Shown one piece after another: positions 9,499-61,310 of a stretch of DNA of 64,000 nt. The notes below the pieces were generated by a model. That model made no database searches. It saw nothing but the letters and a program-made list of their open reading frames with translations, and was not told where the DNA came from. Origin of the DNA: Clavelina lepadiformis (Eukaryota > Chordata > Ascidiacea > Aplousobranchia > Clavelinidae); the NCBI RefSeq assembly GCF_947623445.1, contig NC_135245.1:3913501-3977500 (forward strand). Reading direction: 5' to 3'. Position numbers and translations under genes: made by a program. The number at the start of each line of letters is the position of its first letter. The first letter of the stretch is position 1.

Positions 9499-10259
9499 AT
9501 GAAATATCGAGTCCTCATCGTTCTTATTGCTAGTGGTAAGCGAAGTTTATAAGCCACTTAATGTATGACGAAAAATTGGCATGGTTTCTTGATTTTATTT
9601 TAAAGTGTACACCTAAGTTTAATCATAGTTTTTCCATTTAGTTACTGATTAGCCTATGTGTTATTAACTGATATTTCCATAAATTTACAGAGTTGTTATT
9701 TGCTGGTCTGGCATCAAGCTGTAAGTCAAAAAAATGTAGCCTATATATGACATGCTTTAGTTGTAAAGGTTTTAAAAGTTTGCTATTTATGCTTATAATC
9801 AATTTTTTTGTGTTTGTTTCCATAAAAGAAAAACAAAGCAAAATTGATCTTGAAAAAAGCTTAATTTATCCTAGCAAACAGGGTTTGCCAAGAGTGCGCT
9901 GATGAGTGCGACTTCCCCGTGGAGGGGACCGCTTGCAGAGACTGCGTCATCAACAGATGCCGGGACAATATGAGTAAGTACATAGATGGCGTATGACGTT
10001 AATACTGGTACTTTGGCATCCGAGCATTACCAGAGCGTGTGGAATTATTCGGTTTGTTTTGTTTATTCTGTTTCATTATTAATTTTACTCTTTCGACACA
10101 GGTATATGCGGACAGCATCCGTTTCAACTTCAAGAACAATGCCTTGATGAACCATGCTACACAATGCACATGGTGGACACACCTACCTGGGTTATCTGTG
10201 TGGACGAACAAGGAAAAATACTTTCCAACCACACGTGCTGTTGGTGGGGAGAAAAGTAA
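9499..10259 (+). CDS. Small secreted cysteine-rich protein, four exons
   Basis: Exons 9499-9535, 9691-9720, 9875-9973 and 10102-10259 join in frame with GT/AG borders. Every intron is in phase 1. The predicted protein is about 106 aa. It opens with a signal peptide (MKYRVLIVLIAS, ELLFAGLASS) split over exons 1 and 2. Exon 3 then gives a six-Cys unit, with CQECADEC and later CRDCVINRC. Exon 4 gives a second six-Cys unit, ending HTCCWWGEK. One N-glycosylation site (NHT) lies near the C-terminus. AATAAA follows at 10339-10344, 80 nt past the stop. Exon 3 is the same length (99 nt), phase and Cys layout as exon 2 of the gene at 42051-44957, so the two genes are probably related. The protein is likely extracellular; I do not recognise a named domain. 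Confidence 0.75.
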
Positions 10260-20120: not shown

Positions 20121-22088
20121 TTACGAAGAGCAGCTTACACGAAGAGCCTTGGTCCAATCGGGTGGTCTGCTTGCGTAACCACTGACCTCTGCCGACACTT
20201 GCTCATTATAAGGCCGTTGTAAAGTCATTAATAGCCGCCAGATGTCCGAAAAATCACCCTTTTCGGCTTTACGTATAGCGGATTCAGCCATCCAATTTCG
20301 TAAAACGTAACGCGGGTTTACTGCCAACATTCGTGCGGTTCTGTTGTGGTCTGTGTCTTCAGGAACGTTTTTTCTAAGTCGTTCGTAATATGCGCTTAGC
20401 CACGGTCGGAAATACTTGTGCATTCGTAAATCCTGCAAGGCCCAAAAATGCTTGGGCACGATTGCGTCTTTCATATTTTGCAGTCGCAAGTGGCTGAGCT
20501 GTCTAAACGTCATTGTGAAATCGGCTTTTGTTTGGTTCATCAAATGCAGCAAAGAAGCAATCAGCACGTAGTCGTCGTCATTTTGACCTTTCAGTCCTAA
20601 CTTGTTTCTGAATTCGTCTAATAAAGAATTCTGATACAAAGTGTCAAAGGAGTTCAGGACGTTTTTGGCATCATTTAGCTGCGATTGCGTCATCACTGGC
20701 GCCATAGCGTCCAGTAATCGCTTCAAGTTCATGAAGGCAACACTTGGTTGTTTTTCGAGGGAGTACACGCCATCATCGTCTGAAAGATTAGGAACAAATT
20801 CGGGGTCATAGGAGTCCACAAAACCAAAGGGGCCATAATCTATCGTGATCGATAAAAGACTAAAGTTGTCCGTGTTGCAAACGCCGTGCGCAAAACCCAG
20901 CGACATCCACTTTGTAACCATACGCACCGTCTGGTTCAATACGAGGCTGTACAGCTGCAGGTACCTGTTCGGAACGCCAGGCTCAATCGCGAAACTGAAA
21001 TGATGCTCTATTACGAAGTCGAGTAGTTCCGCCAACAAGTCCACTTCATTGTTCTCGGCGAGAACTTCAAGGGACCCAAATCGAAACCAAGACTGGGCCA
21101 GTCTAAGGACAATCGCCGCTTTCTCTTGGATTACATTTCCGTTATAGAAAGGATCACGTATTACCGGGTCGTCCGAAACCACAAGGCTAACAGCACGTGA
21201 AGTGGGTACACCAAGATGATGCATGGCCTCGCTGCATAGAAACTCCCGTATAGAAGACCGTAAGACAGCTCGACCGTCGCCTGAACGGGAGTAGGGGGTA
21301 CGCCCTGAGCCCTTTAACTGTAGCTCCCATCTTTCACCATGTTTGTTTTGGTATTCCCCAAGCAAATGGGCCCTTCCATCTCCAAGCTGTCCCGCCCATG
21401 TCCCAAACTGATGACCACCGTACCTGTTGAGATGCACAGCAACGTGATATAAGCAGAGGAGGTTGATCGTAATAGGCAATAATAACCAATCCATTAACCT
21501 TACAGAATTACGTCTTCAGGGTGTTTATGAATTGCCGTAAGGGCGTTGCTTTGCATGGTTACAAACTTGTAGTAAAGCAGCAGCAACATGTGTTTACTTT
21601 TGTTTTTGACTATTTCTACAGTGAACAAAAAATTTAACGCAACAAACACAATGCATACGCTACTGGTAACATAGATACCTGTGTGAAAGAGTGGTATTTT
21701 GAAGTAGAGTATTTCCACTTGCAAAGAACATAAATGTCTCTGAGTTGATTGCATCTCGAAAATCAATATCCAAGCAATTTTCTAAGGAGTCTCGTGAAAC
21801 AGCAGCCAGTTTTATGTTGTCTTTCAGTGGTGTAGGCTTAACTTTCGAGAATAAAACACGCTTCACACTCCTCACGTTATTTCGAAGTTCGTTGTCAACG
21901 GGTAGTTTTTGAAGGATGGAATTTGAAAATGTCCAATTTGAAAACGGCATGGGTGGCTTGCAAAAATTCATGTCACTTGACACTCCAAGCACTATTGAAG
22001 CCAGAAGCAATGCAGCAGGGATAGACCTTTTTGTGGAAAATACGAAAGAAAATGCATCCATGGCAGCAGAAACAACATAAATCCACAT
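20121..22088 (-). CDS. SELENOO: Selenoprotein O-family protein adenylyltransferase (Cys form), two exons
   Basis: Exon 1 (21679-22088) and exon 2 (20121-21423) join in phase 2 across YGGHQFGTWAGQLGDGRAH. The product is about 570 aa, between bacterial YdiU (about 480) and human SELENOO (669). SelO proteins are kinase-fold enzymes that AMPylate Ser/Thr/Tyr of redox proteins, in animals inside mitochondria. Family signatures are intact: KGSGRTPYSRSGDGR, FAHGVCNTDN and TIDYGPFGFVDSYDP (metal and nucleotide site). The C-terminus is RVSCSS. The vertebrate enzyme has Sec three residues from the end, and here that codon is TGC, so this is a cysteine homologue. The N-terminal 50 residues contain a basic then hydrophobic segment (SIPAALLLASIVLGVSS), a possible targeting or signal-anchor sequence. 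Two in-frame Met codons compete as start (22088 and the MDAFSF Met ten codons on). Confidence 0.93.
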
Positions 22089-42050: not shown

Positions 42051-44957
42051 TTAGTAGCTGTCATCATAATACAACCCTGCAGTAGGCTTTGTCTCCCAAT
42101 ATAACCACCTATTATGGCATCGACAGTAACTTGGATTGTCGTAGTCTGAAAGTCAACAACACGTTCTTAGGAAGTTCAAGTTGTCGTTATTTTGATAAAA
42201 GGTAACTATTTTCCTTTTCACTCTTGGTTTCTTATGAAAACAACTTGCAAAAATGTTACTTCACTTTCGAAAGATTCTTACTGGCCTACCTTGATCGCCA
42301 CTCTTGGAATCGTTGACGCAGCTGTCGCAATTGGCGCAGTCGGGACAATTGGTCTGCATACAACTTGGAGGATCGCTGGGATTGGCTGCAAAAATGACAT
42401 AAGTTGGCAGATATACATTATTATCCCAATAAGCCTATTAATGACGAGATATGGTAAATATATGAAATTACAATCGCAACGCATATTGGTCTAATTACTT
42501 TGATAAACAATACTTTATTACTATAGATTTTATTTAAAGTATTAATAAACATGAAGACTTTTAGATTAGCAAAAAGTCTTACATGCCCTGCACAAGGCCG
42601 CGCAAAACTTGCAAGGAATCGTTTCTGGATAAGAGGTGTTATCAGCGCAATCCAAATTGCGCTGCCTTTCAGCTACACAAGAAAAAAGGAATAAAGAGAT
42701 AGGTTTAGTGCAAAAACTAAGAATGCATTTAAGATCAATAAAGTAGTTCTTTTGCAATAGTGGAAGTATGAAACCGATGAAACTGTAGGGCTTGAAACCA
42801 ATGAGAGCGCAGTGTTTCTTTAGTCCTTTATATGGATCGTTGTTTATAACACATTTCATGGAAAATTAAAAGCAAAGCTGGATTAATCAATATAAATGGA
42901 TTTAAAAACGTTCACGCTTTCAAGTGCTTTAAAATATGATTTACAAACATGACAATTTGTAGTTTTTCGATAGATCTCACACGTCACATGGTCGGTCTCA
43001 AAATTCCCGGAAGTGGGGGAGCGAAGAGACAAGAACTAAATTTTCTTTTTTCAAATTTTTTTTCATTAAGTGTCCAGAGAAAAAAACTGAGCCTGTTAAT
43101 ATTATCCCCAACCAAGTGCACATTGTAACAAAGCAAAAATAGTTTGAAATTTGTTTGGCAGTTTGGTGAAAAAAATTTGTTTTTTCTCATTGGTCCCACA
43201 ATCCCCTGTGGATTGCTATGTCATTACAATGGGGTATACAAAATAGATTTCTCGGCAATCAACTCGAATTGAGCAAATGCACACGAAAAAGCCAAATGCG
43301 TATGCAGAAGACCTAGCCTACAGGTAGGCTATGTTGATGAAGATTGGTTACCTCGGCAATCTTCTAGGCAGGTATGACAGTTTCGAACCCTGCTTTCAAG
43401 TTCAGATTTATTTTCACATCTGGAACATTCATCCTGTATCGCCTCTACTACACAGTCTACTAACGGAACCGCTGCAAAAAATGTTCTATTTGTCATCTAT
43501 CAGCGATCAGCAGAAATCCTAGCTTACACATTTGTTCGCAGAGTGGAAACGTCTTCGTTTGGGTATTTATCGGAAACTGTCATCTCCGTCAAAGTTAAAG
43601 TTGTTTTATAGTAGCCTCAATAGGCCTAAGTTTCCTGGTGAAATAATTGTTAATAGGTTGTATGATATAGGCCTACAATATTCTAAATGTTTAACATAAT
43701 AGCCTTGACATTTAACCTATTATCTTCAGGCCTACTTGTATTCTCGCATGATAGTTTAATATAACCCCCGCAAAATCTTGGAACTTTTTGAAAATATTCT
43801 TCCCGAGCGAAGCATGAAGTTTCATTGAAGCAAACTCCACAAGATTCATCAGGGCCCTCTTTGGTAACGCAATAGTTGTCAAAGTTGTAATATATCTTCC
43901 CTGAAACGGCATAGGCCTAACGTCAAATTACAGAAAATAGTATCATACGCTATAATTATTTGAGACTGAGACTAAGAATTCTAGTCGGAGTCCGAGTATG
44001 GAAATCTTGTAAGTTTAATGATTTTTAAACACAATAAATCATAGGTTAGGCAGAAATTCTACACTAATGTTATAGAGTAGACTTCATAGGCTACGTCTGG
44101 CTTAAACTTTTGCCTGATTGATGAAAAGTATTTATAAGGTGCACCAGGTTACTTACGTTCGCAATGAGACAGACATCGCTGGCATTTGTAAAGCCTTCTA
44201 TCATGCTGCCAGTTTCCACAGACAGAAGAACAGTTTCCCTGCCACGCTTCTTTGATACAGGACACCCCGAATCGCGTATGGAATGGATCAGCAAAATAGT
44301 TCTCTATAGGAAACAAAATATCACGATACACTCACGATTAATAAACACTACTATGTGGGATTTTGTGAAAATTTTTACCACAGTTTGAATTAAGGCAGGT
44401 TTGACATTCCGGCGCTATATCGTCTTCATCTTGTCCGAAGAAACAACTGTCTGACTCAAAACACCATCTGCATTTGCCTACAGATCAATTAATGCAACAA
44501 CAGTTACAAGAAAAAATTCCACAGACTATAACTTACAAGAAGGCATATTGGTAGGCTATGTCTGATTGAAGCAATGAACTATTTGCTTTCATTGCTTTAT
44601 TGAATTACATTACATGGTTATAAATCCATTAGTTTTTAAGTTTTAACAGTAGGAAACATCCACACTCTACATTGTATTAGGATACCATGTAGCTTACTAC
44701 TTTTGCATCATGAATAGCAAGAGGCTATTCTTGCAACAAAATTGAGGTAATAAGTCATGCTAAATGAGGTAAATTCTAAATGAAGAGTTTCCTGTGAACT
44801 TATTCAAGTGAGAATTGTGCACAGTTTTTCAGGAATTTCTGGTGTTTTGCGAGAGAGTTAAAGTCTTACCTTTTTTTCTTCTCTTGCCACCTTTACCGGC
44901 ATCTGAAAGCAAAGCAAGTCCTCCGAATAAAACAAGCACACATAGAAGAAGCTTCAT
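42051..44957 (-). CDS. Secreted multi-module cysteine-rich protein, seven exons
   Basis: Exons: 44870-44957, 44379-44477, 44157-44303, 43736-43900, 42583-42672, 42290-42385, 42051-42145. All junctions are GT/AG and all six introns are phase 1, giving 259 aa. Exon 1 is a signal peptide (MKLLLCVLVLFGGLALLSDA) followed by a basic patch (GKGGKRRKK). Exons 2, 3 and 4 each hold six Cys. Exon 2 has CRWC...ECQTCLNSNC, exon 3 CSSVC...CQRCLSHC and exon 4 ESCGVCFNETSC...C. Exons 5 and 6 hold four and five Cys, and exon 7 two, ending in an acidic Tyr-rich tail (YYDDSY). N-glycosylation sites (NCS, NET, NTS, NDS) are present. The modular, symmetric-exon design fits an extracellular protein built by exon duplication, related to the gene at 9499-10259. 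I do not recognise the domain. Confidence 0.78.
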
Positions 44958-46719: not shown

Positions 46720-47234
46720 GGTTCCACGACATATGGCCGCGGGAAAGTGGCCGCGAACAAACTCACCGGGGTCAACTGAACGTGACGTAAATTGACCGCA
46801 GACAAACTGACTGTGACATAAACTGGCCGGCGATCAAATTAACCGTCGATAAATTGGCCGGCGATCAAATTAACCGACGACAAATTGGCCGTCAAAAGGT
46901 CAAAATTCTAATTCACTATCTAGTCACTTCTGTTTATTTCAATAAACGTTTCAATGTGTATTGAAATAAAAAACAATTTTGTTAAAAACAAAGGAAATAG
47001 TTACAAACAAATATTTACTTTACATATCATATACTACCGAGTTTAAAATTTTGACCTTTTGACGGCCAATTTGTCGCCGGTTAATTTGATCGCCGGCCAA
47101 TTTATCGACGGTTAATTTGATCGCCGGCCAGTTTATGTCACAGTCAGTTTGTCTGCGGTCAATTTACGTCACGTTCAGTTGACCCCGGTGAGTTTGTTCG
47201 CGGCCACTTTCCCGCGGCCATATGTCGTGCTCCC
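46720..47234. mobile_element. Foldback MITE of the MULE family, 515 bp
   Basis: Identical 9-bp flanks CACAAATAT (46711-46719 and 47235-47243). The inverted repeats are about 195 bp and nearly perfect, so one strand could form a long hairpin. They are packed with ACCG/GGCC units such as GGCCGGCGATCAAATTAACC. The left end GGTTCCACGAC matches the ends of the element at 28889-29967. The unique centre (about 46950-47035) is similar to that element's 3' region. It is therefore a deletion derivative of the same family. No coding capacity. Confidence 0.92.
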
Positions 47235-48153: not shown

Positions 48154-50307
48154 TCATGTTAGTGGTTTGATTGGCTCAAAACGTAAAATATTTTCTGTCG
48201 GCACTCGATTGTGCGGCACTTCATCTGTCTTAAAGATTAAATTGGACATGTTGAATAAGGCAATTCGAGCAGCTTCGCCATAAACGTTGTCCAAAATTCG
48301 CATCTCGTCATCTGTTTGCGTGAAAAATTTCAATTTCACAGTTTTCGTTACAAATGCCCGTGACGGGTGAATGTGGAGAAAGTAATTTCCGCTCAAATCG
48401 AAATGAGCTAAAGTTGTTGCCGACCCGCCACCATCTTGCTCCTGATAAGGATTCGGTCTTTGTATCGAAGTTTCTTCGATATGAAGCCAGTTCTGCGTCA
48501 ATTGGAAAAAACATTGAGTAGGCCTAAACGCTATTCATAGCCAGGGATATGTTGACTGAAAAGAAAAGCGCTTCTGAAATTATTTTAGACTCGGTAAAAT
48601 GTCAGCTTCACGTGCTAAAGCTGTTCAATTATTCATTTAGGCTATAACTTACTTCTTTTTTAAGTTCAATATTTCACTAACAATCAACTCTGAATAACCT
48701 TTTTCATGTTTTCTCTGTAAAATGTCATTAGATATCGGGTTGTAAATGCAAACGGATGAGAGTTGACATAATGCCGTGGGTATTGCTGGTAAAACTTTTT
48801 CAGAAACATTGCGTTTGGTTCTGACAGTACAACACCCATACTGATAGCTTCTTTAATTGACCTGTATAAAAAAAGAAAAAATCCTTTTCCAATAGATTTT
48901 TAAAGTTAGCCTAACTTAAAGCCAAAATAGCAACGTTGAATGGTCACCCACCTTCCCATAGTAATGGGGAATTTTCGCAGATGATCCAGGTTTTGCAAAG
49001 TTATGACGTCACCGTCAATGTAAATTCCGCCGTACTTAAGTAAAATCTCTATTCGGGCTGCGTCGGTTTTGGCTATAAGATGAGTTACCTGTAAGTAAAA
49101 TGAGTAAAACGTATTGTAACGAAAGATTTTACTAAAAATAGATCCTTTCAGAAAGGGTTAATAACTGTACGTCTAGAATAGCGCTAGCCTATAATGCCTC
49201 ATTCCATCCTTGCAGGCTAAAATGCTTGCATTAAAATTTAGTTAGATTAGCTATATACCAGAGTTGTAACCAAGTCATTTTATTCTGACTCCAGTCATTT
49301 CGAGTTGTGACCCGAGTCAATTTAAGTTGTGACTCGAGTCAATATCTTTCAACGTAAAAATTATTTTGACGTCACATTATGCGTTGCGTTAAATTGGTTA
49401 AGTTATTATAAGATCATAACTGTCTACAATTTAGTCTGGTTGACACTTTTTACAAACAGTTGTAATTTTTTTGAAAATGCTCCGTTTTTGTTACATAAAA
49501 TGTTCTTTTTAGCCCTCACAGTCGTCACAACGTGACTCGACTTGACTCGGTATAAATTTTAGATAGCTTTTAAGTTACATTTCTGATTAATCATATTTTG
49601 TTCAATTAAGTTTGTACGCGTTGGTAAAAGTTATAGCAATACTTCGCAAAATAGCCAATAACACGTTGATTTTCCAACCTTTGTGCCCAATACAACTGAT
49701 GGTGGAGTCACTTTTTCGAACTCCAAACACGGTATCTCTTGTTCAGTCTTTTCCCATAGCTGCCCTAAGTTTAGAAAATATCCAGGGCTGGTCAAAATGA
49801 ATACAAAGTATCATGATTTTAAAAAGTGAACTCACCACTCGGTTTTGCTGAACTGAAATGAATGATGATCTTTTCAGGTTGTTGAATGCTCGCTATTGAG
49901 CGGATAGCCAGGTAATTGTAATACCTGAAAGAAGGTTGACCCAACCAAATTAAATGAACTATGTTTGGCACTTTGTATTTTATTCCGTTTTCATCGAAAT
50001 CTCGCCTTGCCGCCAACTTGCCGCATTTAATTTCACTGTAAGGTAAATGATCACAAACAGTGTAATTACGGTAACTACTTGCTCTTTGACAACCGTTATC
50101 AAGGCCGGAAAACAAAGCTGAAGTAAAGTCTTGCAGTTCTGTTGCGTTGAAACTTTCCGGTCGTTGATTTACAGAAGAAAGAAGCCATGCAGTTTGAACA
50201 GAATAGGAAATTAGATGAAGCAGAAAACAAAGAGGAATTAGCAAGAACAGATATTCTCGAATCCACCATTTCTGACTTGACCCTTTCCGTTGCATTGCCC
50301 TACCCAT
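48154..50307 (-). CDS. GT32-like type II Golgi glycosyltransferase, five exons
   Basis: Exons: 49836-50307, 49679-49764, 48952-49088, 48699-48861, 48154-48492. Phases match throughout, giving about 398 aa. After a short basic tail comes a single membrane anchor (YLFLLIPLCFLLHLISYSVQ), then a lumenal stem. The catalytic domain starts at VPNIVHLIWLGQP. It includes AKTDAARIEILLKYGGIYID followed by GDV. D-G-D is the DXD metal/nucleotide-sugar motif in the place expected for the Gly_transf_sug (GT32) family, which includes alpha-1,4-galactosyl and -GlcNAc transferases. HIEETSIQRP matches the block near the family C-terminus. The exon 4 donor (AAAAAG|gttatt) is weak but is the only one that keeps frame. 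The donor and acceptor sugars cannot be told from the sequence. Confidence 0.82.
49262..49560. repeat. GACTCGAGTC-rich dispersed repeat inside an intron
   Basis: Starts CCAGAGTTGTAACCAAGTC and contains CGAGTCAATTTAAGTTGTGA and CGTGACTCGACTTGACTCGG. It resembles the repeats near 9105 and 45815. It lies within the intron between exons 2 and 3 of the glycosyltransferase gene. Confidence 0.45.
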
Positions 50308-59990: not shown

Positions 59991-61310
59991 CACTAGAAGG
60001 ACGGCAATTTTCGTATACCTAAAAGGACGGAGTGCGTCAATTGACGCAAAAGGTCAAAACGGCACAAATCTAACGTTTTTTGTTGAGAAAACTGTGCTGT
60101 TGCTCCGAAAAAACTACTTCTATCGCATGTCCGCTATGTCCATTTTAATTAACAAAAGCAATCGCATTGAAAATACAAGCCGTCGTGCCTAAACACTTCT
60201 GTTTCACGTAACTCCTTTTTCTTCCTGCACTCTTTCGGGACTTCTCTCCTGTTCTGGCGCATTTTCCCTACGAGGCTGCACTTCTTTTCCGCAAGTCGCA
60301 ACGCTAGGTCAAGTGAGGTGAAAACATTATCGCAAGTGACGTTGTAACCTCCTTGAAAAAGCGGAGCTATGAGTTTCAGTACAACGTCGGTGGGCACACT
60401 CCCTTGGGGGCTCCTTGCGTCATCTTTTCCAACGTAAGGAAAACCGTTGAATAAATATTTGTTTTCGACGTCAACTGTCAGCCAGAACTTTAGACCAAAC
60501 TTGTCTGGTTTATTGGCCATATATTGGATGAACTTGCAGCGTGCCTTACACGGCAATAGTTGCTCATCCACAGTTATCTTCCACTGTGGAATGAGTGCTT
60601 TTTGGCAGATTGATATAAAACTGTTCCAAAGTTGTGAAGCGAGTGCAAATTTATCATGCAATAGATTCCTACGCCTTTCCGTCTTCAGATCGAAGCGAAG
60701 GAATCGTATGAGCTCCAGAAACCTGTCTCTTGCCATGGTTTGGGAAAACATCGGACATCCCCACGAATTCCCCCACAAACTCTTCACAGGGAAATTGCGC
60801 CCTCCTTTCACGCCACGAGCAACCACCGACCCGACGAATTTATCTAATTCATCTAATTTATCTAACTAAGAAACTCTTACTACACCTACGCTTCGATAAA
60901 CTTCAAAAATTCCGATATTAGGTTGCGCTTGTGACGAAACTACTCTGTTTTGCAGAAAAGTCGACTTGCATAGTTTGTCAACACGTTTGTTACACCCCCG
61001 TGCTGGCAGCTGTGACCTAATTCGATAAACCTGTAATTATCAGCAGAAACAAAACATTGCTCTCTATTGCGAGAACTGGTTTTTGTAGTGTGAAGTAACA
61101 ATGCGTCAATTGACGCACCCCGTCCTTCTAGGTAGTGACCACGTTAATTATCTCTACCGGTAAAATAAAAATTTCATATTCATGGGTTAGTTACCTAACA
61201 CTTATGTAGGAAAAGTCAGGAAATATCACGGTTGTGCGATGCCCCACTAAAAAGTTATAGATGCACTTAGGTTGAAAATGCGTCAATTGACGCGCCCCGT
61301 CCTTCTAGTG
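59991..61310 (-). mobile_element. piggyBac-family DNA transposon, deleted copy, 1320 bp
   Basis: TTAA flanks (59987-59990 and 61311-61314) and inverted ends CACTAGAAGGACGG / CCGTCCTTCTAGTG define a piggyBac insertion. The palindrome GCGTCAATTGACGC occurs near the left end (60034-60047) and twice near the right (61103-61116 and 61279-61292). The inner right copy is followed by another near-copy of the terminus (CCCCGTCCTTCTAG). The transposase on the minus strand is incomplete, so the copy is non-autonomous. Confidence 0.95.
60149..60826 (-). pseudogene. Partial piggyBac transposase
   Basis: 225 codons of the DDE_Tnp_1_7 core. ITVDEQLLPCKARCKF...MANKPDKFGLKFWLTVD carries the first catalytic Asp region. 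NVTCDNVFTSLDLALRLAEK carries the second. The frame ends at CDCFC before the third catalytic Asp and the Cys-rich C-terminal finger, and the N-terminal third is missing. The remaining frame is intact, suggesting loss by deletion and a fairly young copy. Confidence 0.92.

Follow-up and report, generated by a model that had tools for sequence, protein, structure and literature searches.

The window, a stretch of 64,000 nucleotides from the ascidian Clavelina lepadiformis, contains two genes for secreted-type, cysteine-rich proteins, here called gene A and gene B (Table 1). Gene A lies on chromosome 6, on the minus strand, and fills positions 42051-44957 exactly. Its reading frame of 900 nt is open throughout and encodes 299 amino acids followed by a stop codon. 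The frame is divided into eight exons, one more than an earlier note on this DNA had counted, by seven GT-AG introns, all seven of which are in phase 1. About 680 nt of intron separate exon 5 from exon 6. As far as sequence can tell, gene A is a real gene.

The spliced model agrees with the earlier description of the gene A product as Cys-rich, of a secreted type and assembled from symmetric exons with phase-1 borders. Exons 2, 3 and 4 were said to carry six Cys each between phase-1 borders, and they do; exon 5, which had gone unmentioned, also carries six. The six-Cys module does not extend to exons 6, 7 and 8, which carry four, five and two. Beyond the signal peptide, the protein has 35 Cys spread over seven exons and six N-x-S/T motifs, which are compatible with secretion. 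Past the basic stretch it is acidic, with 28 K+R versus 43 D+E.

Gene B is smaller, and two of its four exons encode six Cys each, as had been reported for both of its units. In the Pfam search, gene B also gave a TACI-CRD2 match that stayed below threshold (E 0.042, cut-off unmet). Elsewhere in the window are an inverted repeat that looks foldback or MITE-type, a transposase domain that we take to be PiggyBac-type, a glycosyltransferase exon and a protein adenylyltransferase frame.

Table 1. Positions of genes, exons and other features, numbered from the first letter of the window
Feature	Position	Strand	Content
Gene A exon 1	44870..44957	-	Start codon, signal peptide (judged by eye), Lys/Arg-rich stretch
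Gene A exon 2	44379..44477	-	Six Cys, spacing 2-5-12-2-4; 99 nt; vanabin block III likeness
Gene A exon 3	44157..44303	-	Six Cys, spacing 8-3-11-2-3; exon 5 duplicate; vanabin block III likeness
Gene A exon 4	43736..43900	-	Six Cys, spacing 9-2-5-13-7; vanabin blocks unmatched
Gene A exon 5	43352..43471	-	Six Cys, spacing 8-2-12-2-3; exon 3 duplicate
Gene A exon 6	42583..42672	-	Four Cys
Gene A exon 7	42290..42385	-	Five Cys; vanabin block II likeness
Gene A exon 8	42051..42145	-	Two Cys, then stop codon
Gene B	9499..10259	+	Exons 9499-9535, 9691-9720, 9875-9973, 10102-10259; secreted-type, 107 aa, 12 Cys after signal peptide
SelO protein adenylyltransferase frame	20121..21515	-	E 6.9e-115
Inverted repeat	46725..47229		187-nt arms, 99% complementary, 131 nt apart; inner 43-nt repeats
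Exon with Gly_transf_sug (DXD) glycosyltransferase domain	48950..49088	-	E 4e-10
Transposase domain DDE_Tnp_1_7	60149..60865	-	E 5.6e-43

Vanabins of the same genome and the modules of gene A

Vanabins have a bow-shaped, helical fold with nine disulfides. According to one paper, they form a unique gene family restricted to vanadium-rich ascidians, with a core of 18 conserved Cys (16 in VanabinX); Vanabin2 binds V(IV) through Lys/Arg, residues that are missing in VanabinX, which has an acidic part (PMC9486056). In a literature search, neither vanabins of Clavelina or Aplousobranchia nor "vanabin-like" proteins turned up. For vanabin together with Clavelina, it returned an alkaloid review that names vanabin in the reference list only.

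The Clavelina genome contains a cluster of seven vanabin genes within about 30 kb of chromosome 4 (8746736-8776891); it also encodes a cellulose-synthase domain. The vanabin profile PF11437, searched against the genome, gives five vanabin matches over the cut-off, and with the limit set at E 10, all seven typed vanabins are matched, the best at 9.3e-14. A profile of the seven in turn finds vanabin2 (PDB 1vfi) at E 2.5e-6. Their 18 Cys can be split, in a division that is our own, into three six-Cys blocks, the third of which has the spacing 4-3-(10 to 13)-2-4, beside 2-5-12-2-4 in exon 2 of gene A, 8-3-11-2-3 in exon 3 and 8-2-12-2-3 in exon 5. In all seven genes, a phase-1 intron follows the first block. 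Two of the seven proteins have a long acidic C-terminal tail resembling that of VanabinX, and the four that were counted for charge are strongly basic. Several carry a Lys/Arg stretch between the signal peptide and the first Cys.

Gene A matches no family over the cut-off in Pfam, NCBIfam and PDB sequence searches, and neither its whole protein nor a three-module profile gave any result when searched by sequence against the PDB. PF11437 does not match the gene A protein or its single modules and does not reach the gene in the genome search, and a vanabin protein used as the genome query misses it too. The statement of the earlier note that no named domain has this spacing therefore stands for these searches. 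It does not stand at the level of single vanabin blocks, which some of the modules resemble. The same note had named a match to a known family as grounds for giving up its reading, and block-level likeness supplies such a match in part.

This likeness was measured by scoring profiles of vanabin blocks I, II and III, vanabins being the sole ascidian family chosen, on exons 2-7 of gene A and on the two modules of gene B. The null consisted of shuffles that keep every Cys in place. Three modules stand out in two runs each: exon 7 to block II, with 22.5 bits (3 and 2 of 1000 shuffles), exon 2 to block III, with 15.1 bits (6 and 4 of 1000), and exon 3 to block III, with 12.8 bits (22 and 8 of 1000). 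Exons 4, 5 and 6 give no value below 74/1000 against any block, exon 4 showing no likeness, and the gene B modules give none below 105/1000. When the pieces between the Cys are merely reordered, the values become 56/1000 for exon 2, 20/1000 for exon 3 and 135/1000 for exon 7.

Taken jointly, the six gene A modules have a score that 1 of 2000 Cys-fixed shuffles attains, and 0 of 2000 when the spacing is shuffled too. Leaving out exon 7 raises these counts to 24 and 6, and leaving out exon 3 to 3 and 1; they are 70 and 48 for exons 2, 4, 5 and 6 alone, and 301 and 119 for exons 3, 4 and 6 alone. The joint score of gene B is reached by 700 and 684 of 2000.

Several controls put these values in proportion. 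Among 42 tests between different blocks of true vanabins, a score of 15.1 bits occurred twice and one of 22.5 bits never. EGF modules were taken from 30 loci of the same genome, one of which had no usable module; the remaining 29, in 87 tests, scored at most 8.2 bits, with a lowest value of 7/1000 (once), as low as that of gene A exon 3, and a next lowest of 33. Three distinct TNFR modules from four loci of the same genome gave nothing below 209/1000 in nine tests.

Searches with the whole protein gave weaker results. The best domain of gene A scores 7.9 bits against the block III profile (3/1000 Cys-fixed, 18/1000 reordered) and 7.6 bits against a whole-vanabin profile (18/1000 and 23/1000), and the whole-sequence score against block III is not low (270/1000). 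With hhalign, exons 2, 3 and 5 align to block III with a probability of 45% over 18 columns only, and a whole vanabin aligns to gene A with a probability of 3%. The structure predicted for the exon 3 module is poor (pLDDT 49.5), and the fold comparison carries no weight in either direction, as its vanabin control missed 1vfi as well. At block level, some gene A modules do resemble vanabins in residues other than Cys, above the shuffles and, as a rule, above the EGF and TNFR controls; the link to vanabins is moderate.

The explanation that we favour, at a confidence just short of even, is that gene A encodes a secreted, exon-duplicated, vanabin-like glycoprotein that has no detectable copies in the genome and would be a distant relative of the vanabins. 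A serious competitor, to which we give somewhat less than an even chance, is that gene A encodes an unrelated Cys-rich protein, secreted and specific to its lineage, such as one of the tunic, the egg coat or mucosal defence, whose resemblance to vanabins comes solely from convergence on helix motifs of the type C-x2-C-x3/4-C. Such convergence would fit the lack of database matches, including the failure of PF11437, as well as the acidic charge of the protein, and the strongest vanabin likeness does sit on short C-x2-C-x3/4-C tails. However, it would have to accommodate a joint score found in a single one of 2000 shuffles that retain every Cys, and neither gene B nor the EGF and TNFR controls produce comparable scores.

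Exon duplication within gene A and comparison with gene B

The arrangement of gene A was compared with chance in a scan of both strands of the window and 10 kb on each side, 84 kb in all. To count as a candidate, an exon had to be in phase 1 at both ends, measure 75-180 nt, encode at least six Cys and have a pyrimidine-rich lead to the acceptor and a GTA or GTG donor. The scan gives eight candidate groups, of which four are exons 2-5 of gene A in consecutive order; two of these four carry additional or alternative candidate borders. Exon 3 of gene B is absent from the eight. By this comparison, the arrangement exceeds chance: five third-order Markov sequences of equal length gave 2, 4, 0, 0 and 3 groups.

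Exons 3 and 5 of gene A align with a score of 62, which 1 of 1000 Cys-fixed shuffles reaches, against a null mean of 30.6. This lies far over the null and means that an exon was duplicated within gene A. For exons 2 and 4, the corresponding value is 55/1000 and is suggestive only. At least one exon duplication within the gene is supported; of the exon shuffling proposed earlier, shuffling between genes is not borne out. Tandem exon duplication inside gene A is enough to explain its modules.

The earlier note had further suggested that genes A and B are related members of an expanding secreted family. The pattern on which this rested is correct: exon 2 of gene A and exon 3 of gene B are both 99 nt long and share C-x2-C ... 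C-x2-C-x4-C. Both genes have small phase-1 exons, including six-Cys exons. However, residue similarity past the Cys is not clear. The two 99-nt exons align with a score of 35 against a Cys-fixed null mean of 34.2, and 434 of 1000 shuffles reach it. Among all 14 exon pairs of the two genes, the lowest value, for A exon 6 with B exon 3, is 34/1000 before correction. BLASTP between the two proteins gives nothing noteworthy, its best match (E 0.19) lying within the signal peptides.

In addition, when the whole genome is searched with gene A and with gene B, with hits accepted to E 10, each query returns only its own exons, although distant copies could escape such searches. The genome copy searched comprises 209.06 Mb in 95 contigs; the published assembly is described as 210.1 Mb in 102 scaffolds (PMC10884593). 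With no match beyond the query gene in either case, the searches show no expanding family. The vanabin likeness, moreover, is found in A and not in B. Kinship of the two genes is rejected on the combined evidence of exon pairs, BLASTP and vanabin scores, and a single modular family expanding by exon shuffling is very improbable, for all the agreement in exon length, phase, Cys number and end motif. The case is a caution that common exon length, intron phase and Cys number in two genes are not proof of kinship.

Least credible of all, and very improbable, is the suggestion that gene A is not one gene and that some of its exons are spurious or come from different transcripts, to which the fewer Cys of exons 6-8 and the long intron before them might point, but against which stand eight exons that hold one frame through phase-1 GT-AG introns to a stop and four consecutive Cys-rich candidates, more than most of the simulated sequences gave.

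Proposed function and comparison with known systems

If gene A is a vanabin-like glycoprotein, a symmetric (phase 1-1) six-Cys exon would have been duplicated to give a secreted, disulfide-rich protein. Disulfides would hold each module in a small helical hairpin, in the manner of vanabins. The secreted and glycosylated product would act extracellularly, in blood plasma or in the extracellular matrix, where it could serve as a multi-module scaffold for metal binding or thiol redox. Because gene A is acidic, binding of V(IV) through Lys/Arg is improbable, and its protein probably lacks binding of the Vanabin2 type. It would more likely bind Cu or Zn, or enter a redox partnership of the kind reported for the acidic-tailed VanabinX; judged from its sequence, a role confined to structure or defence is nearly as probable.

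A further proposal, which we consider less likely than not, is that the vanabins have a polymodular cousin in gene A and that a single symmetric phase-1 six-Cys exon gave rise to both by duplication. If true, vanabins, which have been described as unique, would trace back to exon modules and belong to a larger superfamily of secreted proteins. A multi-exon relative built from six-Cys exons would make the origin of vanabins testable. Moreover, gene A would be a natural protein with vanabin-like modules and the opposite charge, and would thus test the role of Lys/Arg in the choice of metal.

Among other six-Cys modules, those of EGF and TNFR also occur in secreted proteins, and EGF modules are commonly encoded by phase 1-1 exons. 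However, neither profile, that of TNFR being built from three modules, picks out the modules of gene A. EGF or TNFR identity is rejected, as the two profiles scored on the eight modules of A and B give a lowest value of 58/1000 in 16 tests, and Pfam reports neither for gene A.

Gene A is not classed as a vanabin, because PF11437 and the vanabin protein miss it, it has no 18-Cys core but 35 Cys across seven exons, it is acidic overall and has no Lys/Arg-rich core of the V(IV)-binding type, and it lies outside the vanabin cluster on another chromosome. Its six N-x-S/T motifs also set it apart. In common with vanabins, it has a signal peptide followed by a Lys/Arg stretch, a Cys-rich composition, six-Cys blocks ending in C-x2-C-x3/4-C and a phase-1 intron at a six-Cys boundary. 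Phase-1 introns, signal peptides and basic stretches are common in secreted proteins, and their presence in gene A is therefore weak evidence for a link. The joint block score adds a likeness of some modules in residues beyond the Cys. VanabinX, which like VanabinP comes from Ascidia sydneiensis samea, shares an acidic part with gene A (PMC9486056). Gene A may work like a vanabin or be a distant cousin of the family.
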